From: Luteimonas kalidii
GTDB lineage: Bacteria; Pseudomonadota; Gammaproteobacteria; Xanthomonadales; Xanthomonadaceae
Length of the DNA stretch: 64,000 bases
Reading direction: 5' to 3'
NCBI RefSeq assembly: GCF_029887935.1
Contig: NZ_JARXRO010000014.1
Location: forward strand, 633,020 to 697,019
Made by a program: the position numbers and the translations under genes. Of this stretch, positions 29,582 to 43,231 are shown in pieces. The stretch's first letter is position 1. Each line of letters opens with the position of its first letter. The notes beneath the pieces were generated by a model, which did no database searches, was not told the DNA's origin, and was given only the letters and a program-made list of their open reading frames with translations.

Positions 29582-30229
29582 TCAACGGTTCGGCCTCACC
29601 AGCCCGCAGTACAGGCCTTCGATCGCGAAGTCCTGGTCGGGCAGGACCTCGATCGGGGCGTGGTCCGGGTTGCGCGGCAGCAGGCGGATGCGGTCCTTGC
29701 CCACCTTGAGCAGCTTGACGGTGATCGCATCGTCCACGCGCGCGACCACGATCTGGCCGCTGCGCGCCTCCGGCGTACGGTGCACGCCGATCAGGTCGCC
29801 CTCGAAGATGCCTTCGTCGATCATCGAATCGCCCTTGACCTTGAGCAGGTAATCGGGCGCAGGCGAAAACAGCACGCGGTCGAGCACGATGTAATCGTCC
29901 GACCCGATGTCGGCGCCGATCGGCAGGCCCGCCGCCACCTGGCCCAGCACCGGCAGCCGCAGCGCCTCGTTGCCGGGGGGCAGGTCCAGCGCCTGCTGCG
30001 GAGGCGCCACCGGGCGCAGCACGCGGATGCCGCGCGCCCGACCCGGCACGCGTCCGATCGCGCCGGCCGCCTCCAGCGCCTCGAGGTGGTACTGCGCGGC
30101 GCGCACGCCGCTGAAGCCGAACGCCCGGGCGATCTCGCTCTGCGACGGCGGCACGCCTTCGGCCTCGATACGCTCCGCGATCAAGGCCAGGATCGCCTGC
30201 TGGGTGTCGGTGAGGGGGGCGCTACGCAT
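29582..30229 (-). CDS. lexA: SOS repressor LexA
   Basis: A 215-aa LexA. The N-terminal winged helix is LTDTQQAILALIAERIEAEGVPPSQSEIARAFGF. The self-cleavage site is the Ala-Gly of QVAAGLPIG, the catalytic serine is in KGDSMIDEGI and the lysine in ITVKLLK. It represses SOS genes until RecA filaments promote cleavage. The ATG at 30229 fits the family N-terminus (usually a few residues before LTDTQQ), leaving only two bases to the LexA box upstream, so the message may be leaderless. It lies between the small membrane ORF and recA on the same strand. Confidence 0.97.
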   Translation of the reverse strand: MRSAPLTDTQQAILALIAERIEAEGVPPSQSEIARAFGFSGVRAAQYHLEALEAAGAIGRVPGRARGIRVLRPVAPPQQALDLPPGNEALRLPVLGQVAAGLPIGADIGSDDYIVLDRVLFSPAPDYLLKVKGDSMIDEGIFEGDLIGVHRTPEARSGQIVVARVDDAITVKLLKVGKDRIRLLPRNPDHAPIEVLPDQDFAIEGLYCGLVRPNR

Positions 30230-30231
30230 GG

Positions 30232-30250
30232 TTAGTAGTATTACTACTAA
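30232..30250 (-). promoter_or_regulatory. LexA box of lexA (autoregulation)
   Basis: The 19-base near-palindrome TTAGTAGTATTACTACTAA contains TTAG-N6-TACTA, the Xanthomonas-type LexA operator. It ends two bases from the lexA ATG, so it overlaps the place of a ribosome site and a TAATAC -10-like element on the minus strand. Confidence 0.9.
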
Positions 30251-30278
30251 GCCGGGGTGGGGTCAACCGCTGGAGCCG

Positions 30279-30569
30279 CTATCGCTTTCCACCCCGCCAG
30301 ATGGAGAACAGCACCCAGAGCCCTGCGACCGCGGCACCGACGAAGCCGACCGTCCCCAGCAGCCGCAGTGCCCGGCTGGTCACGCCGCCGGCGCTGTTGA
30401 GCACGATCGACGAGCCCACGATCAGCGCCGCCGTCACCACGCCCATCGTCAGTCGGCTGACCGCGCGGTCGAGCTGGTCGCCGAACGCCTCGAGCGCCTC
30501 GACCTCGATCTGCACCCGCATCCGTCCCCGACGCGCCGTGCGCAGCCGTCGACGCACATGGCTTCCCAC
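30279..30569 (-). CDS. small membrane protein like the UbiB/ABC1-kinase C-terminus (possible gene remnant)
   Basis: A 96-residue frame starting at a GTG; an internal ATG at 30521 would give 81 residues. MRVQIEVEALEAFGDQLDRAVSRLTMGVVTAALIVGSS followed by two hydrophobic segments (LLGTVGFVGAAVAGLWVLFSIWR) reads like the last 90 residues of UbiB/AarF proteins, the part with two membrane helices. The kinase-like body is absent: directly upstream lies cinA. It could be a relic of a ubiB-like gene or a genuine small membrane protein in the cinA-lexA-recA transcript. The intact frame and polar C-terminus argue that it may still be translated. Confidence 0.6.
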   Translation of the reverse strand: MGSHVRRRLRTARRGRMRVQIEVEALEAFGDQLDRAVSRLTMGVVTAALIVGSSIVLNSAGGVTSRALRLLGTVGFVGAAVAGLWVLFSIWRGGKR

Positions 30570-30599
30570 ATCACACGGCGCTCCCGGGGCCGGCCGCGC

Positions 30600-31103
30600 T
30601 CATGCCAGCGCGCCGTCCAGACCGAGCAATGCGGCTGCCACGGTCTGACGACGGACGGCTTCACGGTCACCGTCGAAATGGAACAGGTCCGCGCGCGCGT
30701 ACCCGCCACGGCGCTTCCAGGCGATCCACACCGTGCCGACCGGTTTGTCGACGCTGCCGCCCCCCGGTCCGGCGATGCCGGTCACCGCCACGGCGACGCT
30801 GGCGCCCGAGTGCACCAGGGCACCCGACACCATTTCGATCGCCGTCTCGCGGCTCACCGCGCCGTGCACTTCCAGCGTCTGCGGGTGCACGCCCAGCATC
30901 GCCTGCTTGGCCTCGTAGCTGTACACCGCCATGCCGCAGTCGAACCAGTCGGACGAGCCGGCGATATCGGTCACCACCTTCGCGATCCAGCCGCCGGTGC
31001 AGCTTTCGGCGGTCACCAGCATGTGATGGCCGGCGCGCAGCCGCGCCCCGGCCTCGAGGGCGATGGCGTGGAGGGCCTGGTCGTCGGGGATCTGCGTGGA
31101 CAT
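30600..31103 (-). CDS. pncC: CinA family protein, nicotinamide-nucleotide amidohydrolase PncC
   Basis: A 167-aa stand-alone CinA C-terminal domain, the size of PncC, which turns NMN into nicotinate mononucleotide and ammonia in pyridine-nucleotide recycling. Motifs: MLVTAESCTGGWIAKVVTDIAGSSDWF (the ESCTGG serine region), YSYEAKQAMLGV, GAVSRETAIEM, AVAVTGIAGPGGG and KPVGTVWIAW. The ATG at 31103 (MSTQIPDDQ) is used; the longer open frame has no family-like residues. The cinA-lexA-recA order is conserved in related genomes. Confidence 0.93.
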   Translation of the reverse strand: MSTQIPDDQALHAIALEAGARLRAGHHMLVTAESCTGGWIAKVVTDIAGSSDWFDCGMAVYSYEAKQAMLGVHPQTLEVHGAVSRETAIEMVSGALVHSGASVAVAVTGIAGPGGGSVDKPVGTVWIAWKRRGGYARADLFHFDGDREAVRRQTVAAALLGLDGALA

Positions 31104-31230
31104 GGGGGCGCTTGGCGCGGGAGACGCCACATTCTGAACCCAAACCGGCGCCAATCCGACATCCGGGCCCACCTGTGCCGACGTGCCCGGCGGCATGCCG
31201 GCGGGCAGTCGCCGGAACGACGCACCAGGC

Positions 31231-31258
31231 AAAGACCCGCGCGCCAGGGACGCGCGGG
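31231..31258 (-). terminator. terminator of the TonB-receptor gene
   Basis: On the minus strand, CCCGCGCG pairs with CGCGCGGG across a seven-base loop, followed by TCTTTG. It lies 18 bases after the receptor stop. Confidence 0.7.
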
Positions 31259-31275
31259 CCACGGCCGGGGATGGC

Positions 31276-33930
31276 TCAGTAGCGGACGCGGAAGGTGACG
31301 CCGTACATCCGCGGCGCACCCAGGAACGCGTTGAAGGTGTTGAGCGGGTTGCCCGGATCCGGGAACAGCCCCTGCAGCGGGGCGTCGAACCCCACCTGCA
31401 CGTACTCGGTGTCGGTGATGTTCGTACCCCACAATTCCACCGTCCAGCGGTTGTCGCTGGCGCCGATGCCGACGCGGGCGTTGACCACCGTGTACGACGA
31501 CTGTTCCTTCTCCACGTCCAGGTCGGAACCGGTGTTGTAGTCGCCCATGTACTTGGCGCCGATGTTGAAGCGGCCGACCATGGCGTTGCTGAAGTCCCAC
31601 TCGTAGGTCACGGCCATCGAGCCCGACCACTCGGGTGCGAACGGCATGGTCGCGCCCGGCAGCTTGTACAGCGCGCCCGAGGTGCTGAGGGGCGTGCGTT
31701 CGACGAAGTCCGCCCCCGGGATGTCGTCGCCGAACGTGGTGTCGGCGTACATCAGCCCACCCTGCAGCATCAGCCCGGTGACCGCCTGCGGCTGCCACAG
31801 GATCTCGGCATCCAGGCCCGAGGACGTGACCTCGGGAATCGAGCGCACCACGAAACTGGTGCCGAGGAAGCTGTTGAGCTGGAAGTCCTCGTATTCCTGG
31901 TGGAACAGCGTGGCGTTGAGCAGCAGCGAGCCGTCGGCCCAGGTGGTCTTGGCGCCGAGCTCGTAGCTGTCGACGAACTCGCCGGGGAACGAGGTGTCCG
32001 CCACGGGGGTGATGCCGGCGCTGCTGGCCGAGTCGCCGTCGGCGGACTGCACCCGGTCCAGGTTGAAGCCGCCGCCCTTGTAGCCGCGTGCGGCCGAGGC
32101 GTAGGTCATCACGTGCTCGTTCCAGCGGTAGGCTGCCTTCAGCGTGCCGGACCACTCCTTCTCCTCGCTCTCCTGGTAGGTGCTGCGCCCGTTGTGCAGC
32201 GCGTTGGCCCACGGCAGGCACATGTAGCCGGCGATCTGCGGGCCGGCCGAGGCCATGATCGCGTCCTGCACCGGGCCGGGCAGGCCCGCGAACGCCGTGC
32301 TGCGCGAGGCCAGCGCGGCGCGCAGGCGCGCGTAGCGGGCCGGGTTGAGCGGATTCTGGTCGGTCAGCGCGCCGGTGCAGGCCAGGCTGCCGTTGGGATT
32401 GCTGTAGTCGGACGTCAGCTCCTTGTCCTCCCGGGTGTAGCGCAGGCCCACGGTGACATCGAGCGCATCGGTCGCGCGCCAGGTGTTGTTGGTGAACAGG
32501 GCGATGCTCTTGGCGTTCTGCTCGTAGCGGTCGAGCGCTCCGAGGCCGGTGAAGCCGGTGCCGTAGGGCGTACCGCCGACCTGCGAGAGGAAGGCCGCGG
32601 GCGGAATGCCCAGCGGGTTGTCCAGCGGCACCCCGGCCGCGGCCAGGCTCTGCCCGACCAGGGTGTACACCAGCGTGGACACGTACGGCTCGTAGGCCGG
32701 ACCGACCCGATAGCTTTCGTTGCGGCGGAGATCCTCGTCGGAATAGAACATGCCGACCATCCAGTCGAGCCGGTCGGTCGCGCCGGTCAGGCGGAATTCC
32801 TGGCTGAAGGTCTCGAAGCCGGTGAACGACTCGTCCTCGTTGGCATTGCGGTACAGCAGGTCGGCGGTGCTGAAGTCGTAGTCGAGGCCATTGATCGCCT
32901 GCCACTCGCGCGAGGCGGTGATCGAGGTCAGCGTGGCCCCACCGAAGCCGCCGAGGTCCCAGTTGATCTCGGCCGACACGCCCTTGTCCTTGATGTCCTG
33001 GGTGGTGTCGCGGTTGCTGTATGCGACACGGTCGAACGGATCGTCACCGGGTGCCGCCACCGCCTGGCCGCCGGCCAGCGCGTTGAGGATCGGGGCGGTG
33101 CCACCCACGGTGGTCTGGACCGCCGTGCAGCAGTTCTCTTCGCGGCTGGTGTAGTCGGCCGAGAGCAGGACGTCGAGCGCTTCGGACGGCTCGAACAGCA
33201 GCTTGCCGCGCACGGTGTGGAAATTCTGGTCGTAGTCCTCGTCCTCGGTGCGCGGGCCGTTGCCGGTCTCCACGTCCATCCATCCGTCGCGCTTGCGCTT
33301 GGCGGCGTAGACGCTGAAGGCGGCGGTGTCGCTGAAGGCGTCGTTGTATGCGCCCGACACGCCCATCGCGCCGAAGTTGCCCACCGACACTTCCGCCTCG
33401 GCGCTCTGGGTATAGCTCGGGCGACGGGTCACGACGTTGATCACGCCGGCAGAGGTGTTCTTGCCGAACACGGTTCCCTGCGGGCCCTTGAGCACCTCGA
33501 TACGCTCGAGCTGGCCCAGGTCACCGAAACCGACGCTGTTGCGCGGCCGGTACACCCCGTCGATCACCACGCCCACGGACGATTCCAGGCCGACGTTGTC
33601 GCCGACGGTGCCGATGCCGCGGATGCGCGCGGTGGTGATCGCCTCGTTCTGGGTACTGGTGACGGTCAGGCCCGGCACCAGGATCTGCATGTCCTTGATG
33701 TCGCGCACGCTGCTGTCCTGCAGCAGCTGTTCGTCGAGCGCGGTCACCGAGATGGGCACGTCCTGCAGCGCTTCCTCGCGCTTCTGCGCGGTGACGGTCA
33801 GGGTGGCCAGGGTGCGGGTCTCTTCCCCCGTGTCCGGCGTGTCCTGCGCGGTCGCGGGGACGGCCGTGGAGGCGATCGCCGACACCAGGGCGATGGCGAG
33901 GATGCTGTGCTGCGGATGGCGTGAAGCCAT
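31276..33930 (-). CDS. TonB-dependent outer-membrane receptor
   Basis: An 884-aa receptor. Signal peptide about residues 1-29 (SILAIALVSAIASTAVPATA), then the plug: TLTVTAQKREEALQDVPISVTALDE (TonB-box region), VPGLTVTS, ARIRGIGT, VGVVIDGVYRPR and LERIEVLKGPQGTVFGKNTSAGVINVVTRRP. A 22-strand barrel with many aromatic-girdled strands follows and ends in VRY. The type with VGVVIDGVYRPRN is common in Xanthomonadaceae and sphingomonads and carries varied substrates; nothing nearby shows which. A GGGGGA ribosome site precedes the ATG at 33930. It is transcribed away from the mutS region. Confidence 0.94.
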   Translation of the reverse strand: MASRHPQHSILAIALVSAIASTAVPATAQDTPDTGEETRTLATLTVTAQKREEALQDVPISVTALDEQLLQDSSVRDIKDMQILVPGLTVTSTQNEAITTARIRGIGTVGDNVGLESSVGVVIDGVYRPRNSVGFGDLGQLERIEVLKGPQGTVFGKNTSAGVINVVTRRPSYTQSAEAEVSVGNFGAMGVSGAYNDAFSDTAAFSVYAAKRKRDGWMDVETGNGPRTEDEDYDQNFHTVRGKLLFEPSEALDVLLSADYTSREENCCTAVQTTVGGTAPILNALAGGQAVAAPGDDPFDRVAYSNRDTTQDIKDKGVSAEINWDLGGFGGATLTSITASREWQAINGLDYDFSTADLLYRNANEDESFTGFETFSQEFRLTGATDRLDWMVGMFYSDEDLRRNESYRVGPAYEPYVSTLVYTLVGQSLAAAGVPLDNPLGIPPAAFLSQVGGTPYGTGFTGLGALDRYEQNAKSIALFTNNTWRATDALDVTVGLRYTREDKELTSDYSNPNGSLACTGALTDQNPLNPARYARLRAALASRSTAFAGLPGPVQDAIMASAGPQIAGYMCLPWANALHNGRSTYQESEEKEWSGTLKAAYRWNEHVMTYASAARGYKGGGFNLDRVQSADGDSASSAGITPVADTSFPGEFVDSYELGAKTTWADGSLLLNATLFHQEYEDFQLNSFLGTSFVVRSIPEVTSSGLDAEILWQPQAVTGLMLQGGLMYADTTFGDDIPGADFVERTPLSTSGALYKLPGATMPFAPEWSGSMAVTYEWDFSNAMVGRFNIGAKYMGDYNTGSDLDVEKEQSSYTVVNARVGIGASDNRWTVELWGTNITDTEYVQVGFDAPLQGLFPDPGNPLNTFNAFLGAPRMYGVTFRVRY

Positions 33931-34420
33931 GTGGATGTCCCCCAGAAGGTTGATGGCGATGCGGTGGCGCCGGTCATGCGGTGAAACGCGACCGCGCGGC
34001 CGGTCAGTGGGCGCGGGCTCCGGACGCGTCGGCCCGCGTGGGGGACTGGCCGCCGTCCGATGAGGCTGGAGCGAACGAAAACCTAACACACTTCACGGCG
34101 ATGGGAAGTGCCACGTGCACCGGCGTATGGGGTGCCGGCGGCCGACCCGGCACGCGCGGTCGTCGGCCGGCAAGGCCGCAAGCCAATGCGAGCGTGGCGC
34201 GGCCCGGCCGGTGCGCATCGACCCGGGCGGACCCGCGCGCCCGGCCCCGACCGCCGCCGGGCGGCAACACGCCTGCACGGCGCAGCCGCGCCTCGTGCGA
34301 TGGCCGGTCGAACGCCGCCCACGACGCCGGGCCCGCCGCAGCCCGGGTACTGGCGCGCGGGCGCGGGCGGATACAATTCCGGGCCGGCGCGCCGTCGCGC
34401 GCGTCCCCGCCGCAGGTCGA
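33931..34420. other. intergenic region with the left-behind mutS promoter
   Basis: About 490 bases without a convincing gene. The right part (TACAAT at 34372-34377) is a good -10 element on the plus strand 44 bases before the relic mutS start; a -35 is not clear. The left part must hold the receptor promoter on the minus strand, where I see no consensus. Confidence 0.5.
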
Positions 34421-34468
34421 ATGAAGCTGGACAGGTCGCCCGAACACACCCCGCTGATGAAGCAGTAA
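34421..34468 (+). pseudogene. relic of the native mutS 5' end
   Basis: A 15-codon frame, [15 protein letters not shown] and then TAA. Its last eight residues EHTPLMKQ equal residues 8-15 of the intact mutS at 40640. The frame is cut by the island exactly after the shared CAG codon. This shows that the original mutS read on from here into [10 protein letters not shown] and was split by the insertion. Confidence 0.9.
34442..34465 (+). repeat. left attachment repeat (attL) in the mutS 5' relic
   Basis: 24 bases matching 40661-40684 at 20 positions. The longest exact core is ATGAAGCAGT. All four differences fall in codon third positions, leaving EHTPLMKQ unchanged on both sides. Confidence 0.82.
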
Positions 34469-34550
34469 TCGCGTGTGCTGGCTGAAACTACATCTATCTA
34501 TTTGTTTCTGCTTGGATTCATTGTCGACGCAAAGGCTTGTCGAACGATTT

Positions 34551-34578
34551 GGCTACCCGCTGTCTACGTTTGGCTACC
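34551..34578. repeat. paired GGCTACC repeats at the left island end
   Basis: GGCTACC occurs at 34551-34557 and 34572-34578, both preceded by TTT, about 90 bases inside the left junction. The right end has the same pair, so these may be recombinase or excisionase arm sites. They lie just beyond the 3' end of the HTH gene. Confidence 0.5.
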
Positions 34579-35020
34579 GAATTTGTCGCTGATTTGGACG
34601 ATTTTTCAGGTTTTCGGAGAGCGCCGGTCCGTCCTTCGCAAGCCGTCGTTGCAACCGTCCTAATCTCTCTTCCATACGGCGGATTTCTGCTCGCAACTTC
34701 ATGGCCTGCTCGCGTCGCTTCAGAAGATCCAGCGTCGAGATGTCTGCCTTGTCCCCGCGAAACCGAACCTTTCTCGACGACATCCATGAGTCGAGGTCCG
34801 ACAGCTCATAGAACTGGTGGGCATTCGTCTGCTTCGACCGGTCATGGACGATCGATGGCGGCCCGAACCCTTCTTCCTGAAGCTTGGTCAGGCTCGTCCA
34901 GTGCATGCCCAGATACCAAGCAGCCGCCTTGCGGGTGACATAGGGCCGCACTCCGCTACGGGCGTCGGCAATCTCCTGCCGAAACCGCACTTCCATGATC
35001 GGATCCTTGGCGCGCTTCAT
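34574..35020 (-). CDS. helix-turn-helix protein, AlpA/excisionase-like
   Basis: A 148-aa protein. Residues 25-75 (YVTRKAAAWYLGMHWTSLTKLQEEGFGPPS, then QFYELSDLDSWMSSRK) have the layout of MerR/AlpA-type DNA-binding domains: a helix-turn-helix, a wing region and a final YxxxDLDxW segment. The C-terminal 40 residues (LLKRREQAMKLRAEIRRMEERLGRLQRRL) look like a coiled coil, probably for dimerisation. The ATG at 35020 has GGGAG upstream; an internal ATG at 34996 also has AAGGA. Lying at the island edge and divergent from a Xre repressor, it could be a recombination directionality factor or a regulator. Confidence 0.65.
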   Translation of the reverse strand: MKRAKDPIMEVRFRQEIADARSGVRPYVTRKAAAWYLGMHWTSLTKLQEEGFGPPSIVHDRSKQTNAHQFYELSDLDSWMSSRKVRFRGDKADISTLDLLKRREQAMKLRAEIRRMEERLGRLQRRLAKDGPALSENLKNRPNQRQIR

Positions 35021-35052
35021 CAGCTGCTCCCGGGCAGGTCGATTGCGCGACC

Positions 35053-35071
35053 CTCTATCTAAAAGATAGAG
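35053..35071. promoter_or_regulatory. perfect dyad between divergent island regulators (operator candidate)
   Basis: CTCTATCT-AAA-AGATAGAG is a perfect 8-bp inverted repeat with a 3-base centre. It lies 33 bases upstream of the HTH gene and 61 bases upstream of the Xre gene. Its size and place suit a binding site for the Xre dimer. Confidence 0.6.
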
Positions 35072-35131
35072 TCTGCCGCATAGGGAGAGGGTTCGCCATT
35101 CTTCGGGCTTCCGCATTGCCGATGCCCTCTG

Positions 35132-35464
35132 TTGACGAAGCTGACCGCCCGAGCCCTCTTCGCTGCCCGCCTGGTTCAGGCGAGGGAGCTGCGCGGCCTC
35201 AGCCAGCGCGCATTGGGGGATCTCATGGGTCTTGGCAAGGACAAGGGCTCTTCCCGCATCAACCGCTACGAGCATCAAGTCACTGCAGTCGGATTCGACA
35301 ACTTGCAGAAGTTAGCCGAGATCCTGGAAGTGCCTGTTGCTTATCTGCTCGCGGAGACGCCGGCAATGGCGAATGCGATCTTGGCTCTTTCGCGCATGCC
35401 GGAAGACAAACGCCCTGAAGTCGTCAAACGACTTCTAACTGCGCAGCCTGCGAAATCGGGGTAA
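35132..35464 (+). CDS. Xre-family transcriptional regulator
   Basis: A 110-aa protein with one Cro/CI-type helix-turn-helix (RLVQARELRGLSQRALGDLMG, then SRINRYEHQVTAVGFDNLQKLAEILEVPVAYLL) over residues 14-72, followed by a short tail. The frame starts with TTG at 35132; no in-frame ATG or clear ribosome site is seen, so the exact start is uncertain. It is divergent from the HTH gene with a perfect 19-base dyad between them and probably controls both. Such repressors typically govern excision genes or downstream defence genes in islands. Confidence 0.8.
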   Translation: MTKLTARALFAARLVQARELRGLSQRALGDLMGLGKDKGSSRINRYEHQVTAVGFDNLQKLAEILEVPVAYLLAETPAMANAILALSRMPEDKRPEVVKRLLTAQPAKSG

Positions 35465-35555
35465 ACCCAGGCAGTGCAGTGGGAGACAGGCCTCGCACAA
35501 CCCCCTCCCCAGCCGTCCCGGTAGACTGAGCCGGGGGACTAGAACCGGGGGCATC

Positions 35556-36920
35556 GTGGAGTTTGTCGGAAGGCCGCTTGCGGGCGGCATGTTGCATAAC
35601 GCGCATCTTGCGGCGATTGAAGACTGCGTTGAAGTCAAGGCCGCCATCGCCTATGCCCAACAGGGCGTCGACAAGATCCTGCTGTTCGATGACTGTCTGC
35701 GAAAAGGAAAGAAGTTGACCTTCTACGGCCGCGTCGACGGGACCTGTCCTATTGATCTGCGCGTCCTCAACTGGTTCCTGAGGCGAAATTCCCCGAACGC
35801 CATCTGCAAGCTGGTCCCGCACTGGCTGCATGCCAAAGTCATCTGGTGGGTTGGGCAAGGCGCCTACATCGGCTCAGCCAACCTCACCGACCGCGCCTGG
35901 TTCAAGAACTACGAGGCCGGCATCTACCTTACACACGAGGAACTCGAACAGTTCGGCCTCATTTTGGAGCTCGAAGACTTCTTCGACGGACTGGAGCAGA
36001 ACTCATTCCCACTCGATGACGAGGAATACGAGCGACAGGTCAAGATCGATAAGCGCCGCGCCGAGCTGCTAAAGAAGCTCAAAGACATACAGCAAGAATA
36101 CGAAGATGGGCACTGGAAGCTAAAGGACCGCACTACGCCCATCACGGTCGCCGCCACCCGTAAAACCAAGGACAAGCGGTTGGTTGCGTTCAAACAAGAA
36201 TGGGGTCAAACGCTACAGTTGATCCGAAGTGTTGGCGCCCGGGTCTCTCTGGACGAGAACCGGCCTGACTGGATCGCCTCGGACGTTCCGCAAGGGGTCC
36301 AAGGCGACCAGTTCCTGCATGCGTATTACTACCAGAGGGTGCGCCCCAACTCGGAGAAGAACGCCTACCTCCGCGAGTTCAACAAGCACCGGAACAACCC
36401 GGAGGCCGCGTTGAGCGCCGCTCTGGCCTGGTGGAAAGGCGGCGCATATGAACACGAACACGAGGAAGGCACGATCTACCAGTCTGCACCGTTGTTGCGA
36501 GCTCTATTCGGCAAGGGCCGGATCACGACCCTCGACGAACAGGAATGGGTGAGCGCACTCACCAACATCTACGCCTTCGGCGATCACGCATCTAAGGTCA
36601 GCAACGGTTACCTGGGACTCGGCACCGATCCCGGTGGCGCTGCCAAAGGCGTCGCTCTGGCACACATGCTCTGGACTACAAAGACCATCAACGGCATGTC
36701 GGCCCCAGAAATGTTCGATTTCGTCATCTGGGGCAAGGGTAACGTCGCCGAGCGTATCTGGACCGCCAGCCACGAACGCGAATTCAAACTCCATCACATC
36801 GGGACGAACATCCTGGGGGAGGTGGTCGGCTGGGCCAGGCCGACCGAGTATCCGCCCCGCAACTCGCGCACGAGCAAGGCTCTATGCGCACTCGGCAATG
36901 ATGTGGAGGTGGTTGTGTAA
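35556..36920 (+). CDS. phospholipase-D-like domain protein
   Basis: A 454-aa protein with a single clear HKD-type motif: LHAK at 91-94 and GSANLTDRAW from 106, that is H92, K94 and S107/N109 in H-x-K-x(n)-GSAN. Such single-motif proteins dimerise to make a phosphodiesterase site; many in islands are nucleases or restriction effectors rather than lipases. Residues 127-185 are charged and helical (ELEDFFDGLE, RAELLKKLKDIQQEYED). The C-terminal 250 residues hold no motif I recognise. No signal peptide is present. The GTG start at 35556 follows a GGGGG stretch. It is convergent with the MauJ-like gene, 73 bases away. Confidence 0.75.
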   Translation: MEFVGRPLAGGMLHNAHLAAIEDCVEVKAAIAYAQQGVDKILLFDDCLRKGKKLTFYGRVDGTCPIDLRVLNWFLRRNSPNAICKLVPHWLHAKVIWWVGQGAYIGSANLTDRAWFKNYEAGIYLTHEELEQFGLILELEDFFDGLEQNSFPLDDEEYERQVKIDKRRAELLKKLKDIQQEYEDGHWKLKDRTTPITVAATRKTKDKRLVAFKQEWGQTLQLIRSVGARVSLDENRPDWIASDVPQGVQGDQFLHAYYYQRVRPNSEKNAYLREFNKHRNNPEAALSAALAWWKGGAYEHEHEEGTIYQSAPLLRALFGKGRITTLDEQEWVSALTNIYAFGDHASKVSNGYLGLGTDPGGAAKGVALAHMLWTTKTINGMSAPEMFDFVIWGKGNVAERIWTASHEREFKLHHIGTNILGEVVGWARPTEYPPRNSRTSKALCALGNDVEVVV

Positions 36921-36993
36921 CAGTTTGCAGCATGCCAACTGATCCTCCGCGCAGCCGCCCGAGATGCGGCAGAAGGATGGCGCGGATAGTTGT

Positions 36994-38328
36994 CTAACCT
37001 TGCTGCCCGCGCTCTCGCCGGAAGGCTTCAACAGCTTCTTCTACGGCTTCATCCGGGTTCCGGGGAATGATGTTGACCGGAATGACGACTTCGCAATCAA
37101 TCGGCTCTCGTCCTTCTAGGCATAGCTCCACAACGGCATTGCCGATAACTCGATGGAAGACCGTCGCGAATTCTCTGACATCATCCTCCACCGGATGATG
37201 TTCATCGTTCTGCAGCAGGCTACTGTTGTCTAGTTGTGTGTGTATGCGTCCGTGCCGGAAGTCCAGAACAAACGCGAACATCATCGTCATTCGATCGTTG
37301 AACAGCAGTATTCGAACAGCCCCTTCGTGCACTGCATCTACGTGCATCGTCAGAGCACGCAAGCCATCCATGGGATGATCGGGCCAGAGCGCCAGCCCAA
37401 CGCGTAAGCCTTCCAGCCCCAATGTGGACGCATCGGGCGTCGCGCCATCCTCAAGCGTCGCAAGCGCCACTGGGTCGAGCAATGAACTCCATGACTCAAG
37501 TCGGTTGCGCGTGTCGGAAAGGGATCTTGCGGTGGGCACTCTCAGCTCCTCGGATATGTAGCGCCACGCAAGCTCGCGCATCAGCACTAGGTCGGCAGAA
37601 ATACGCCTCCGGTCGGCAACGACGTCGGGATCAACGATGCCGCCGCCGAACGAAGCGTGTGCCACGGCATTGCGCCCACTGTCGTAAAGGTGCCGCCCAA
37701 CATCAGCGCCGCCCGCCCGCAGTTGTGCGACGCGGGCAGCAGCGTCTCCCGCCATCTTGTCGATGTTATTGTTGAACCACGCTTCTCGCTGGCGGCCATT
37801 GCTGTATTGCGATTCAATGACTTTGAAGTAGCTCAGGAATGAATAGCTATCGTGGACGCGCCTGAGCCTCTCACCTTCTCGCCAGAAGGCTAGCGCGATA
37901 CGAATATTTTCATCCTCAATGATCGGCATGTGGTTGCAATTAAACGACTTGGCGCCAGCCTGTCCGACCGTTGAGAATGCATGCCGCATTTGTGCGCCAA
38001 AGCCAAACGGATGGCTCCCGCTGATTACATCGACCACATCAACGTATCCGCCCAAGAACCACCCGAGCACGGATGTGAAGCGATAAACGCGCGCCAAAGA
38101 CTGTTCCAGTTCCTCTCGATCTCCTGGAACAGTGATGGCAGGAGCAGTCGGCTGGGGACCGTTTTCAGTGCCACGCAGGATGAAGTCGTCGCCGGCGTAT
38201 TGAACCCAGACATCCTTCTGCGGCCACGGGACCGATGATGCGACCGCGGCCGAGACCCAGCCCACGCGACTGCGAAGCTTCCGGACGGCGGCCTCGCCAA
38301 ACACGTGGGGGACATATGGTGTCTTCAT
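36994..38328 (-). CDS. MauJ-like protein with a HEPN-type R-x4-H motif
   Basis: A 444-aa protein. Residues 140-240 contain IALAFWREGERL, YSFLSYFKVIESQY and then RNAVAHAS, with R219-N-x3-H224. This R(N)x4H motif after two long helices is the hallmark of HEPN domains, most of which act as RNases in toxin-antitoxin and abortive-infection systems. Proteins with this layout are often annotated methylamine utilisation protein MauJ after one operon, but no methylamine genes are here. The ATG at 38328 has GGAAGAA upstream; the open frame beyond it is not family-like. The long C-terminal region (250-444) is unrecognised. Confidence 0.65.
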   Translation of the reverse strand: MKTPYVPHVFGEAAVRKLRSRVGWVSAAVASSVPWPQKDVWVQYAGDDFILRGTENGPQPTAPAITVPGDREELEQSLARVYRFTSVLGWFLGGYVDVVDVISGSHPFGFGAQMRHAFSTVGQAGAKSFNCNHMPIIEDENIRIALAFWREGERLRRVHDSYSFLSYFKVIESQYSNGRQREAWFNNNIDKMAGDAAARVAQLRAGGADVGRHLYDSGRNAVAHASFGGGIVDPDVVADRRRISADLVLMRELAWRYISEELRVPTARSLSDTRNRLESWSSLLDPVALATLEDGATPDASTLGLEGLRVGLALWPDHPMDGLRALTMHVDAVHEGAVRILLFNDRMTMMFAFVLDFRHGRIHTQLDNSSLLQNDEHHPVEDDVREFATVFHRVIGNAVVELCLEGREPIDCEVVIPVNIIPRNPDEAVEEAVEAFRRERGQQG

Positions 38329-38502
38329 GCAAATTCTTCCGGGAATGGACTTCGCAAGGCTATTGCAGTTTGTGCCCGGCGAAACGCCGGGCTCCCGAGC
38401 GTCGAAACTGTGATGACGCCCGTCCACAAGGGCATGACTCTCAGCTGCTGCGACGGAAGCTTGACACTTTGCGGTTGGCCAGGCCGAGACTAAGCTCAGC
38501 GG

Positions 38503-39249
38503 ATGCACGCCGCCAATAATCCAGCAATGCGACAGTGTTGGGCCGCGATTCTGGGCGGCTGCGACAAGCTCTCTCGCGAGCACGTCGTCAGCCAATCGGT
38601 CTTCGCCTCGTGGTGCGACTGTCCGACCCACGTCGAAGGCATGCATCGAACGCCCAGCGGGCACCTCCCGCAAAGTGCGCTCACGGCCAAGATCCTGTGC
38701 AAGAAGCACAACTCTGCTCTCAGCGTCCTGGACGCCGAAGCGGGACAGCTCGCCGAACACCTGCTTCATGCCGCCGCTGGCAATCAGATCGGCCGCCCGG
38801 AGATCGACGGCGCACTCATTGAGCGCTGGGTATTCAAGACGTTGATCAACGGCTTGGCGGCAGGATGGAGTGATCGCCGTAAGTGGCTGCCTCACGAACA
38901 CATCGTCCGCTTCATCTTCGGCCTCGGCCAGGTGCCGCATGGCTGCGGGCTGTATTCCGTCGATGGAAGCAGCGAAGACCTCCCCAATCCGCAGGATGCG
39001 TCGGTAACACCTTTGTGGGCCGGCTCGAATCCGATGACCAAGAAGCTGCTAGGCGGGCAGATTCGCATCAACGGCCTACGCTTGTTTGCCGCATTCCATG
39101 ACCAGGTAGTTCTTCACCTCGTAGGCCGCCCCGAGAGCCCGCCGAGAGTTTTCGAGAACGAGGAGCTACGTTTCGTCTACCGCCCCGCCTTCATCTCAAT
39201 CGGCGCGCCTGGGAGTAGCGAGAATGGGCTGATCCTTCGCTGGCAGTGA
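38503..39249 (+). CDS. HNH-endonuclease-like protein
   Basis: A 248-aa protein. The N-terminal 80 residues have Cys and His spaced as in HNH/McrA-like zinc nucleases: C12, C20, then SREHVVSQSVF with H27, and later LCKKHNSALS with Cys-x2-His-Asn. The second half (LIERWVFKTLINGL onward) is not recognised and has no membrane segment. The start at 38503 is taken from the open frame; an ATG at 38527 (MRQCWAAIL) is an alternative. It is divergent from the MauJ-like gene with 174 bases between, which must hold promoters for both. Confidence 0.6.
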   Translation: MHAANNPAMRQCWAAILGGCDKLSREHVVSQSVFASWCDCPTHVEGMHRTPSGHLPQSALTAKILCKKHNSALSVLDAEAGQLAEHLLHAAAGNQIGRPEIDGALIERWVFKTLINGLAAGWSDRRKWLPHEHIVRFIFGLGQVPHGCGLYSVDGSSEDLPNPQDASVTPLWAGSNPMTKKLLGGQIRINGLRLFAAFHDQVVLHLVGRPESPPRVFENEELRFVYRPAFISIGAPGSSENGLILRWQ

Positions 39250-39282
39250 GTTACGTAATCCATAACTCGGCAAACCTATACC

Positions 39283-39310
39283 ATGGGCCTCCAGATTGGG
39301 CCCATTTTTT
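39283..39310 (+). terminator. intrinsic terminator behind the HNH-like gene
   Basis: ATGGGCC pairs with GGCCCAT across a nine-base loop and is followed by six T. It lies 33 bases after the HNH-like stop, so the next gene needs its own promoter. Confidence 0.88.
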
Positions 39311-39479
39311 CTCGTGCGCTAGGAGCCTGCCCCATGTCGGATCGGGGTTGTGCGTGGATAGCCCTGACACCAGGGCACCTGAAAGGGTATGAGAATGTCC
39401 GCGTTCAGATGCCGACCACCCTGCGTCGATCAGTTAGCCTCCCGCACATCCGCACCATCCCACCCAGAACCCTACGAGC

Positions 39480-40289
39480 ATGATCAGCAAAGCCCGACAG
39501 ATCTGCGAAAGCTACCTGCGCGAAGAGATTCGAAGTAACGATGAGAAAGGAATACTTCCTAGCAAAAATAGGATCGCGGAACGCCTGCTTGCTCGTGGGG
39601 ACGAGCTAGTCGATGTTTATGAGGTGGTCCACACCAAGCTCGCCAGGGACGACATTGCTTGGAAGATCCTTCTTGGTCGCCTTCTAACGACGGCTGCGTT
39701 CTGGTCGTTGGAGAAGATTGCCCAAGCTCGTGCCGAAGAGAAAGCCCTGATGGAACTGAATCAGAGCATTGCCAAACATGCTCACGCGCTATCGGATCTC
39801 CTGGTCGACCGAGATGACCTCCACAATCGCTCGTCCTTTAGTAGCGGCACTCACTACGACATTTGCGAGGTCATATCAGAGGCCAGTGCAGGCAACTCGC
39901 GCTTTAGTAGCTACCTCAAAGAGCCGCTGGATCACCTGAGCAGCCGGTTCGACATGAAGTATTGGCCTTCCCTTTCAAGTTGTATTCGCGTAATCGGCAA
40001 CGATGCACAGAACGCCAAGACCGCCGCCGACGACCCATTGACCGCGGCGGCAACACGAAGCACTCGTCCCTCCAAAGCAGACTTCGTCCGCGCGCTACGC
40101 GAGTCAATTGACGAGATACGTGGCGACTGGCTCGGTGGCATCCCCAAGGCATTCACCCTGTCCAATGACTCGATGGCGACTCTTGTCAACGTATTGCTAG
40201 ACCTGCCTCCAGATGAGCTGGTGGATGGGACCTATGTAAAGAATCTTGGGCGCGACAAGAAGCCAAGGATCTCCGCATCCACGCGCTGA
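39480..40289 (+). CDS. hypothetical protein, island cargo
   Basis: A 269-aa protein that I do not recognise. It is mostly alpha-helical and charged (ICESYLREEIRSNDEKGILPSKNRIAERLL, then LEKIAQARAEEKALMELNQSIAKHAHALSDLL), has no signal peptide or membrane segment, and shows no catalytic motif. The N-terminal 40 residues could be a small DNA-binding helix bundle. Codon use matches the other island genes and not the flanks. It is the last gene before the right island end, 230 bases after the terminated HNH-like gene. Confidence 0.65.
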   Translation: MISKARQICESYLREEIRSNDEKGILPSKNRIAERLLARGDELVDVYEVVHTKLARDDIAWKILLGRLLTTAAFWSLEKIAQARAEEKALMELNQSIAKHAHALSDLLVDRDDLHNRSSFSSGTHYDICEVISEASAGNSRFSSYLKEPLDHLSSRFDMKYWPSLSSCIRVIGNDAQNAKTAADDPLTAAATRSTRPSKADFVRALRESIDEIRGDWLGGIPKAFTLSNDSMATLVNVLLDLPPDELVDGTYVKNLGRDKKPRISASTR

Positions 40290-40639
40290 CCAGTTTTCGA
40301 CCCCACCTTCGCACGCGGAGGATCGCCATTAGCTCCTCAGGCGGGTAGACAGAACGCTGACCAGCGCAGACCGAGGGTGATAGCGAGTGAAAGCGGTTGG
40401 AAGCATGTGATTTGTGGCTACCCCATGGCTACCTTTTTGGCCTGAAACAAAGCAGTCGACCTACAATCAGGCCTGTCGCGCCTTCGCTCGCACGCGGATT
40501 TCTTTGTTGCATCAACCACTTGCATGACCGCGGGCGCTTGAACTCGCCCCGAGAAATCGCACGCTGTTGATGCGGAGCCCGGATGTCGGTTGATCTCGGC
40601 CGACGAATCAGTATTTTTCTCTTTCAATAGCAATACGTT
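40290..40639 (+). promoter_or_regulatory. right island end with the substituted mutS promoter region
   Basis: 350 bases without a gene. It holds the paired GGCTACC repeats (40416-40422, 40428-40434). A possible promoter is TTGATC (40590-40595), a 16-base spacer and TATTTT (40612-40617). The ten bases before the mutS ATG have no Shine-Dalgarno sequence. Everything here belongs to the island and replaces the native upstream region of mutS, which is now stranded at 34372-34420. Confidence 0.45.
40416..40434. repeat. paired GGCTACC repeats at the right island end
   Basis: GGCTACCCCATGGCTACC: two copies five bases apart, 240 bases inside the right junction, mirroring the pair at 34551-34578. Confidence 0.5.
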
Positions 40640-43231
40640 ATGACATCCGGAAAGCAGGTCGAGCATACCCCTCTCATGAAGCAGTTCTTCGCCGCCAAGG
40701 CGGAGCATCCGGATGTCCTGCTGTTCTTCCGCATGGGCGACTTCTACGAACTGTTCTACGACGACGCGCGCAAGGCCGCGCGCCTGCTCGACATCACCCT
40801 GACCCAGCGCGGCAGCTCGGGCGGGCAGCCGATCCCGATGGCGGGCGTGCCGCACCATGCGTCCGAGGGCTATCTCGCGCGGCTGGTCGCGCTGGGCGAG
40901 TCGGTGGCAATCTGCGAGCAGATCGGCGACCCGGCCGCGAGCAAGGGGCTGGTGGAACGCAAGGTGGTGCGCATCGTCACCCCCGGCACGGTGACCGACG
41001 AGGCCCTGCTGCAGGAACGCCGCGACACGTTGCTGCTCGCCGTCGCCCGCGGCCGCACCGGCTACGGCCTGGCCTGGGCGGATCTCGCCGGCGGCCGGTT
41101 CCTGGTCAACGACGTCGCCGGCGACGCGCAACTGGAAGCCGAACTGGCGCGCCTGGATCCGGCCGAAGTGCTGCTGCCCGACGAGGAAGGCTGGCCCGAT
41201 TTCCTGCACGAGCGCACGGGCCTGCGCCGGCGCGCGCCCTGGCTGTTCGACGCCGAATCCGGCCGTCGCCAGCTGCTGCAGTTCTTCGGCCTGCACGACC
41301 TGACCGGCTTCGGCATCGAGGACCGTCCGCTCGCGATCGCCGCGGCCGGCGCCCTGCTCGGCTACGTCGAGGAGACCCAGAAGCAGCGGCTGCCGCACCT
41401 GACCTCGATCGCGGTGGAGAGCGGCGACGGCGCGATCGCGATGAACGCCGCCACCCGACGCCACCTCGAGCTCGACACGCGCGTCGACGGCGACACCCGC
41501 CACACCCTGCTCGGCGTGCTCGACACCACGGTCTCGCCGATGGGCGGGCGCCTGCTGCGCCGCTGGCTGCACCGCCCGCTGCGCGAGCGCGATACGGTGC
41601 GCCTGCGCCACGCCGCGGTGGCGACCCTGATCGACGCACGCGCGGACGAGCCCCTGCGCGAACGCTTCCGCGCGCTGGGCGACCTGGAGCGCATCCTCTC
41701 GCGCATCGCGTTGCGCTCTGCGCGCCCGCGCGACCTGTCCACCCTGCGCGACGGCCTGGCGATGCTGCCCGCGGTGCGCGAACTGCTGGCGCCGCTGGAT
41801 TCGCCGCGCCTGCGCGACCTGTCCGATGCGCTGGGCGAGCACGCCGCCGAAGCCCACCTGCTCGCCACCGCGCTGGTGGAACAGCCTCCGGTACTGGCAC
41901 GCGACGGCGGCGTGTTCGCCGAGGGCCACGACGCCGAGCTGGACGAGCTGCGCCGGCTCAGCGAGAACGCCGATGGGTTCCTGGTCGAGCTCGAAGCGCG
42001 CGAAAAGGCCGCCACCGGCATCGCCACGCTCAAGGTCGGCTACAACCGCGTCCACGGCTATTTCATCGAGATCAGCAAGGCGCAGTCGTCGAAGGCGCCG
42101 ACGCACTACACCCGGCGCCAGACCCTGACCGGCGCCGAGCGCTACATCACCGAGGAACTGAAGACCTTCGAGGACAAGGTGCTGTCGGCACGCGAACGCG
42201 CGCTCGCGCGGGAGCGCCTGCTGTACGAACAGCTGCTCGACGCGCTCGCCGCGCGGCTCGAACCGCTGCGCCGGTGCGCCGCCGCGCTCAGCGAACTGGA
42301 CGTGCTGGCCGCGTTCGCGCAGCGCGCGCAGGCACTGGACTGGTCGCGCCCGGCGCTGTCGGATACGCCCGGCATCCGCATCGAGCGCGGTCGCCACCCG
42401 GTAGTGGAGGCGGTGCGCGACGAGCCGTTCGAGCCCAACGACCTGGTGCTGGGCGAGGACCGGCGCATGCTGGTCATCACCGGCCCGAACATGGGCGGCA
42501 AGAGCACCTACATGCGCCAGAACGCGCTGATCGTGCTGCTGGCGCACATCGGCAGCTTCGTGCCCGCGTCGCTCGCCGAGATCGGCCCGATCGACCGCAT
42601 CCTGACCCGCATCGGCGCCGGCGACGATCTGGCGAAGGGCCAGTCCACCTTCATGGTCGAGATGGCCGAGACCAGCTACATCCTGCATCACGCCAGCGAC
42701 CAGTCGCTGGTGCTGATGGACGAGATCGGGCGTGGCACCTCGACCTACGACGGCCTCGCCCTGGCCGAAGCCTGCGCACGCCAGCTGGCCGCCGCCAACC
42801 GCAGCTACACCCTGTTCGCGACCCACTATTTCGAGCTCACCGCACTGGCCGAACCCGGCAGCGGCATCGCCAACGTGCACCTGGACGCGGTGGAGCACCA
42901 CGATGCGCACGGGCACGACACGCTCGTCTTCATGCACGCGGTGAAGGACGGACCGGCCAACCGCAGCTTCGGCCTGCAGGTGGCCGCGCTGGCGGGCCTG
43001 CCGAAAGCGGTGATCCGCGACGCCCGCACGCGCCTGGCCGAACTCGAACGGCGCTCGCACGACGCCCCTGCGACGGCGCCGATGTCGGCCGAGCGCATCG
43101 ACCAGCCGCAGCAGTTCGGGCTGTTCGCGCCCGCCTCGGCTGCACTCGAAGCGCTGGCCTCGATCGAACCGGACGAGCTCACGCCGAAGCAGGCGCTGGA
43201 GGCGCTGTACCGGCTCAAGGCGCTGTCGTGA
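40640..43231 (+). CDS. mutS: DNA mismatch repair protein MutS
   Basis: An 863-aa MutS. It finds mismatches and starts methyl- or nick-directed repair with MutL. The mismatch-wedging motif is in [15 protein letters not shown] (Phe-x-Glu), the connector and clamp follow, and the ATPase has Walker [15 protein letters not shown], then [16 protein letters not shown] and FATHYFELT. The C-terminal dimer helix region is present ([16 protein letters not shown]). The first 15 residues, [15 protein letters not shown], lie on island DNA; the native ones would be MKLDRSP and then the same EHTPLMKQ. The protein is complete, but its promoter and ribosome site are supplied by the island. Confidence 0.96.
40661..40684 (+). 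repeat. right attachment repeat (attR) inside mutS
   Basis: Partner of 34442-34465: 20 of 24 bases equal, all differences synonymous. The right junction joins codon 15 (CAG) of the island-borne start to the native TTCTTCGCC. Confidence 0.82.

Follow-up and report, generated by a model that had tools for sequence, protein, structure and literature searches.

A probable cis-mobilizable element without an integrase at the 5′ end of mutS in Luteimonas kalidii

SXT supplies a new start to prfC. The SXT/R391 integrative and conjugative elements (ICEs) insert at the 5′ end of this gene and are described as conjugative elements of 79–110 kb with their own integrase (PMC4542580). SpyCI islands, inserted in mutL, are reported to separate the gene from its promoter and to switch it, and SpyCIM5, which has a broken integrase, to be excised by an integrase given in trans (PMC3430984). 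The cis-mobilizable elements (CIMEs) of Streptococcus ICEs are described as keeping attL and attR while the integration and transfer genes are absent, with accretion taking place at attR (PMC5704250). Integration into mutS was described in 2008 for the islands GI8c of Burkholderia pseudomallei MSHR305 and Bt-GI4 of Burkholderia thailandensis E264, with a 15-bp repeat, ACGCCGATGATGCAG (PMC2612704). Here we analyse 64,000 nucleotides of Luteimonas kalidii (contig NZ_JARXRO010000014.1, positions 633,020–697,019; hereafter the window), in which an island of six genes lies at the 5′ end of mutS. It is probably a CIME-type element without an integrase, related to mobilizable elements that occupy the same site in other Lysobacteraceae.

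The junctions of the island and its target gene comprise the following features:

34421..34468, plus strand: attL, the native mutS 5′ end, closed by an element-derived stop; the same start is present in the empty relative G021
34457..34464, plus strand: crossover core ATGAAGCA in attL; identity extends to 34466
40640..40675, plus strand: element-borne mutS start (first 12 codons)
40676..40683, plus strand: crossover core ATGAAGCA in attR; identity extends to 40685
40640..43231, plus strand: mutS, 863 residues, the target gene, made whole by the 5′ end that the element brings

The left copy of the mutS start runs from an ATG at 34421 to a TAA at 34466–34468, and the right copy opens with the ATG at 40640. 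Both copies lie where the initial annotation had located them, and the coordinates confirm its claim that the 24-base repeats, GAACACACCCCGCTGATGAAGCAG and GAGCATACCCCTCTCATGAAGCAG, are mismatched only at four third codon positions (bases 3, 6, 12 and 15). Since the identical stretch ATGAAGCAGT occupies 34457–34466 and 40676–40685, the insert measures 6,219 bp. The left limit of the core is set by the attL/attR mismatches up to repeat base 15, and its right limit by base 24, which differs in the genomes G248 and G344. The GC content of the insert is 0.581 vs 0.698 in 5 kb of the left flank and 0.716 in mutS, and the intact mutS contains five MutS domains. The flanks joined at the core align unbroken with the mutS locus of the empty relative G021 (locus L002; 90.6% over 3,478 bp), so the junction is not a product of chance. 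The mutS gene of this island-free genome starts MKLDRSP, the start that the initial annotation had expected of relatives without the island; because the joined flanks and the start both match G021, the left copy represents the ancestral start and the island an insertion. The junctions show that foreign DNA is inserted at ATGAAGCA within the EHTPLMKQ codons of mutS, which upholds the proposal of a site-specific insertion that uses the mutS start as attB and recombines inside conserved codons. As read from the frames, the element provides a new start and the first 12 mutS codons, leaving the frame whole, together with the stop that ends the native stub.

In its choice of a conserved protein gene, entered at the 5′ end, the island resembles the SXT/R391 ICEs as they are described, but it has neither their own integrase and conjugation genes nor their insertion in prfC. 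SpyCI islands likewise lie at a mismatch-repair gene; according to the published account, however, they switch mutL, whereas the window's element restores an open mutS.

The mutS start was surveyed in 395 genomes of the Lysobacteraceae (Xanthomonadaceae). A degenerate pattern placed two EHTPLMKQ sites on the same strand and contig in 11 genomes including the window's, and a wider pattern added G203, which brings the number of placed pairs to 12, with islands of 6.2 to about 85 kb; further islands in this position, which it had been suggested to look for, do exist. The pair count leaves out G108 (two same-strand sites) as well as G056 and G273 (sites on different contigs), and two of the 52 genomes of the window's genus carry the site pair. 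The patterns overlook islands with a diverged attL: G010 (a genus mate), G043 and G044 have a recombinase beside mutS and no matching attL. The synonymous mismatches between repeats were set aside as proof, since any element whose attP copies conserved codons would show them. In 13 pairs (including G273), 43 of 46 attL/attR mismatches fall at third positions, in a set biased toward synonymous pairs because the search pattern admits mainly synonymous change; no p-value is used for this excess for the same reason.

In the ten other islands of the first pattern, a protein of 497–659 residues is encoded just inside attR, divergent from mutS. PF13356, the arm-binding domain, was matched by all five recombinases scanned, two of them above the cut-off, and PF00589 was found in four of ten (G033, G350, G246 and G353). 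All ten aligned proteins keep R380, K437, H508, R511, H534 and Y552, which we take to be the catalytic residues. A model built from their alignment matches 30 of the 395 family genomes at E ≤ 1e-20; mutS lies alongside 27 of these loci, and the remaining three are partial matches without it. The 27 recombinases beside mutS include 22 near full length (G420 and G273 with one stop each, G108 in two pieces), three fragments (G415, G296, G270) and two that are probably cut by contig ends (G335, G309). In a class-wide sample, one of 369 genomes gave a match to the recombinase, and that genome belongs to the same family. Islands of G033, G186, G248, G344, G350, G353, G339 and G416 also contain, away from their ends, a further tyrosine recombinase (PF00589, encoded by open frames of 441–513 residues). 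Mobilization genes were read in two islands: that of G385 encodes a TrwC relaxase, a type I restriction system and an Abi_2 protein, and that of G246 encodes TrwC and a TrwB-type coupling protein. On account of TrwC, and in G246 also of the coupling protein, at least these two islands look mobilizable by conjugation.

At the 27 recombinase loci the mutS 5′ end is different and in frame, and at all 28 junctions (these loci and the window) it is open and has a start codon. At their attR ends, G246 (Lysobacter chinensis) and G353, from another genus, share 83% identity, and their recombinases share 86%, whereas attL and attR within each genome are only 51% and 53% alike, respectively; the attR ends of G248, G344, G186 and G416 are 97–100% identical. 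The comparison indicates that the mutS 5′ end travels with the element, as in the G246/G353 pair, and bears out the earlier claim that the element brings its own in-frame 5′ end. Similar attL and attR are found as exceptions in G248 (97%) and G350 (75%), where the element landed on a mutS already bearing such an end. A stub of the mutS integrase, 50 residues long (about residues 6–55, 64–66% identical), is present in G248 at positions 223–372 of locus L102 (G248:C6:418822-418971), about 95–245 bp left of attL. We read this stub as the sign of an older decayed element, on whose attR the present one landed, as the CIME model expects in its published outline (PMC5704250). Judged from these genomes, the mutS start is an integration hotspot in Lysobacteraceae, used by one family of large tyrosine recombinases.

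The reading as a mobile element put forward in the initial annotation holds for the site-specific insertion with its own 5′ end; what had been overlooked is that the island has no recombinase. Like the mutS elements, it possesses an element-borne in-frame mutS 5′ end, but the recombinase just inside attR and divergent from mutS is absent, and among the 12 placed pairs this is so for the window's alone. None of the island's six proteins matched an integrase family, and family searches found no relaxase, coupling protein or type IV secretion system among them. The model of the mutS recombinases returned nothing at E ≤ 10 from the whole genome of the window, which has five further PF00589 matches, all of them on contigs other than the window's. 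A hidden integrase was considered and rejected: in tblastn, the recombinases matched the island at best with an E value of 0.007, and shuffled queries gave lower E values in two of 40 replicates. As to a possible derivation by deletion from an ICE or an integrative and mobilizable element (IME), the island shares gene families with the mutS elements, but contains no integrase remnant above shuffled controls and has its gene w1 at the opposite end. It keeps attL and attR, with arm-like repeats at both ends, and lacks genes of integration and of transfer, as CIMEs do. It differs from CIMEs in that its target is a protein gene, entered at the 5′ end and given an element-borne start, and in keeping a gene resembling that of a recombination directionality factor (RDF).

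Paired TGGCTACC repeats lie inside both ends of the island and look like integrase arm sites:

34550..34557, plus strand: TGGCTACC copy (putative arm site) 88 bp inward of attL
34571..34578, plus strand: TGGCTACC copy (putative arm site) 109 bp inward of attL, overlapping w1 at its 3′ end
40415..40422, plus strand: TGGCTACC copy (putative arm site) 266 bp inward of attR
40426..40433, plus strand: TGGCTACC copy (putative arm site) 255 bp inward of attR

These are the only four copies in the 64 kb, where 0.61 are expected, and none of 100 shuffles reached four. As the motif was first spotted by eye, a separate motif test was run: the core followed by TA, 60–90 bases and TTTGGCTAC matches four of 262 family genomes (the window's, G203, G246 and G273), in every case at the mutS attL, in a sample that included G212 without a match and had G353 outside it. 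The intact elements of G246 and G353 carry TGGC(T/G)AC pairs at 85–97 bp (attL) and 143–153 bp (attR), an arm-like pair occurs in attR of G212, and TTTGGCTACAC followed by GCGGCTAC in G203 and G273; in the other eight two-ended islands, no arm-like pair was found at either end. In local alignments of the att interiors, attL stood out from 200 shuffles only for G246 (0 of 200) and nearly so for G353 (5 of 200), and attR was weak for most; this likeness is not relied on by itself. In all five members of the arm-type group (the window, G246, G353, G203 and G273), the core CAG in attL is immediately followed by TAA or TAG, a stop that ends the native mutS stub at once.

Between the junctions, six open reading frames make up the cargo:

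34574..35020, minus strand: w1, winged-helix protein of 148 residues, a likely RDF
35132..35464, plus strand: w2, Xre-type regulator (HTH_3); related proteins occur in other mutS islands
35556..36920, plus strand: w3, PLD-like protein (PF13091) with a full-length match to phrog_28026
36994..38331, minus strand: w4, MauJ-domain protein (PF17419)
38503..39249, plus strand: w5, no family match; HNH-like Cys/His spacing by eye and one weak row in one search
39480..40289, plus strand: w6, unnamed family; shares 45% identity with a protein encoded near attL in the G186 island

The best match of w1, by profile and by fold, is RdfS (PDB 8dgl), reported as the excisionase of ICEMlSymR7A (PMC11963761). 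The protein has a winged-helix fold in a model with a pLDDT (predicted local distance difference test) of 72.5, and MerR-type proteins match it too. A helix precedes the winged helix in both w1 and RdfS; they differ in that identity is 28% over 57 aligned residues and w1 has a long extra C-terminal helix. The profile and the predicted fold make w1 a likely RDF (excisionase), encoded at the opposite end from that in intact elements. Metagenomic relatives exist for w1 (91%, 17 member sequences) and w6 (88%). None of the 11 w1 relatives in named genomes belongs to an island like the window's, in a search that may not include the window's own record. The w6 family has 231 relatives at E ≤ 0.001, and the best 120 of the 231 include Burkholderia, Ralstonia, Xanthomonas, Pseudomonas and others. 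The match of w3 to phrog_28026, a phage-derived family, covers its whole length (E 5.7e-139), and there is a weak match to the DISARM protein DrmC. Searches of phages gave no DNA match to the island, those of plasmids three weak matches to single genes and no w1 relative, and those of viral contigs one weak match to the recombinase and none to w1. Left of the island, at 29582–34089 on the minus strand, lie genes judged by eye to encode a LexA-like repressor, a CinA-like protein and a TonB-dependent receptor.

According to the CIME reading, which we consider probable, a tyrosine recombinase of the G246/G353 subfamily would have inserted the island and would bind the TGGCTACC repeats, with w1 as the excisionase of the system; the integrase and relaxase would have been lost by the element or would never have been present. 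The island would now stay put, with mutS relying on the element's start, and it may move if another element brings a matching integrase, either by entering the cell or by inserting next to the island; until such an integrase arrives, it is probably fixed. Two features weigh against ready mobilization: the arm spacing in the window's attR differs by about 110 bp from that of intact elements, and the inverted copy present in attR of G246 and G353 is missing. The presence of arms at both ends and of an RDF-like gene without an integrase or relaxase would equally suit a dedicated satellite, which never had an integrase and is moved in trans by co-resident mutS elements. The position of w1 and the metagenomic relatives of w1 and w6 speak for such an origin, but no second island of the same make-up was found, the recombinase is missing from a single placed pair, the attR spacing is changed and the window's genome holds no helper of this recombinase family, so that we regard a satellite as unlikely. 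We would attach a similarly low chance to an integrase parasite, in which attP arms, a 5′ end mimicking mutS and an own excisionase would let the island ride the integrases of passing mutS elements; each excision or return would then also swap the mutS promoter and first codons.

A still-moving island that exchanges the promoter and initial codons of mutS, in the way reported for SpyCI and mutL (PMC3430984), would have this precedent and the element's ownership of the mutS start in its favour. Such a switch is improbable, given that there is no integrase and the frame is open in both states; the promoter evidence points neither way (no sigma-70-type promoter was found in the island, and shuffles average 1.8). 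An origin with no mobile element, by partial duplication of the mutS 5′ end or by homologous recombination there, would account for the short repeat and for nothing else. It is contradicted by the match of both flanks to one empty locus and by the recurrence of the same architecture with recombinases in other genomes, which leaves it hardly credible.

The identification of mutS as an integration site was correct in the initial annotation, but had been published for Burkholderia (PMC2612704). GI8c and Bt-GI4 share with the window's island a short direct repeat at mutS, and ACGCCGATGATGCAG translates in our hands as T-P-M-M-Q, the same mutS codons as here. They differ in coming from another taxon and in being termed a putative prophage; the likeness is drawn from the published description, whose section on these islands contains no analysis of the integrase, arms or 5′ end. 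In the literature covered, outside which most subscription papers fall, no earlier report of mutS islands in Lysobacteraceae was found, and the Burkholderia paper was the only one to describe islands in this gene. What appears to be new is a CIME-like element at a coding 5′ end that keeps arm-like sites and an excisionase-like gene.

The mutS start emerges as a recurring landing site, where one recombinase family returns the gene start that it takes, and such an element can be without a recombinase and yet keep its apparent binding sites. As a mismatch-repair gene here takes its start from the element, loss or movement of the island could change mutS expression and hence the mutation rate.
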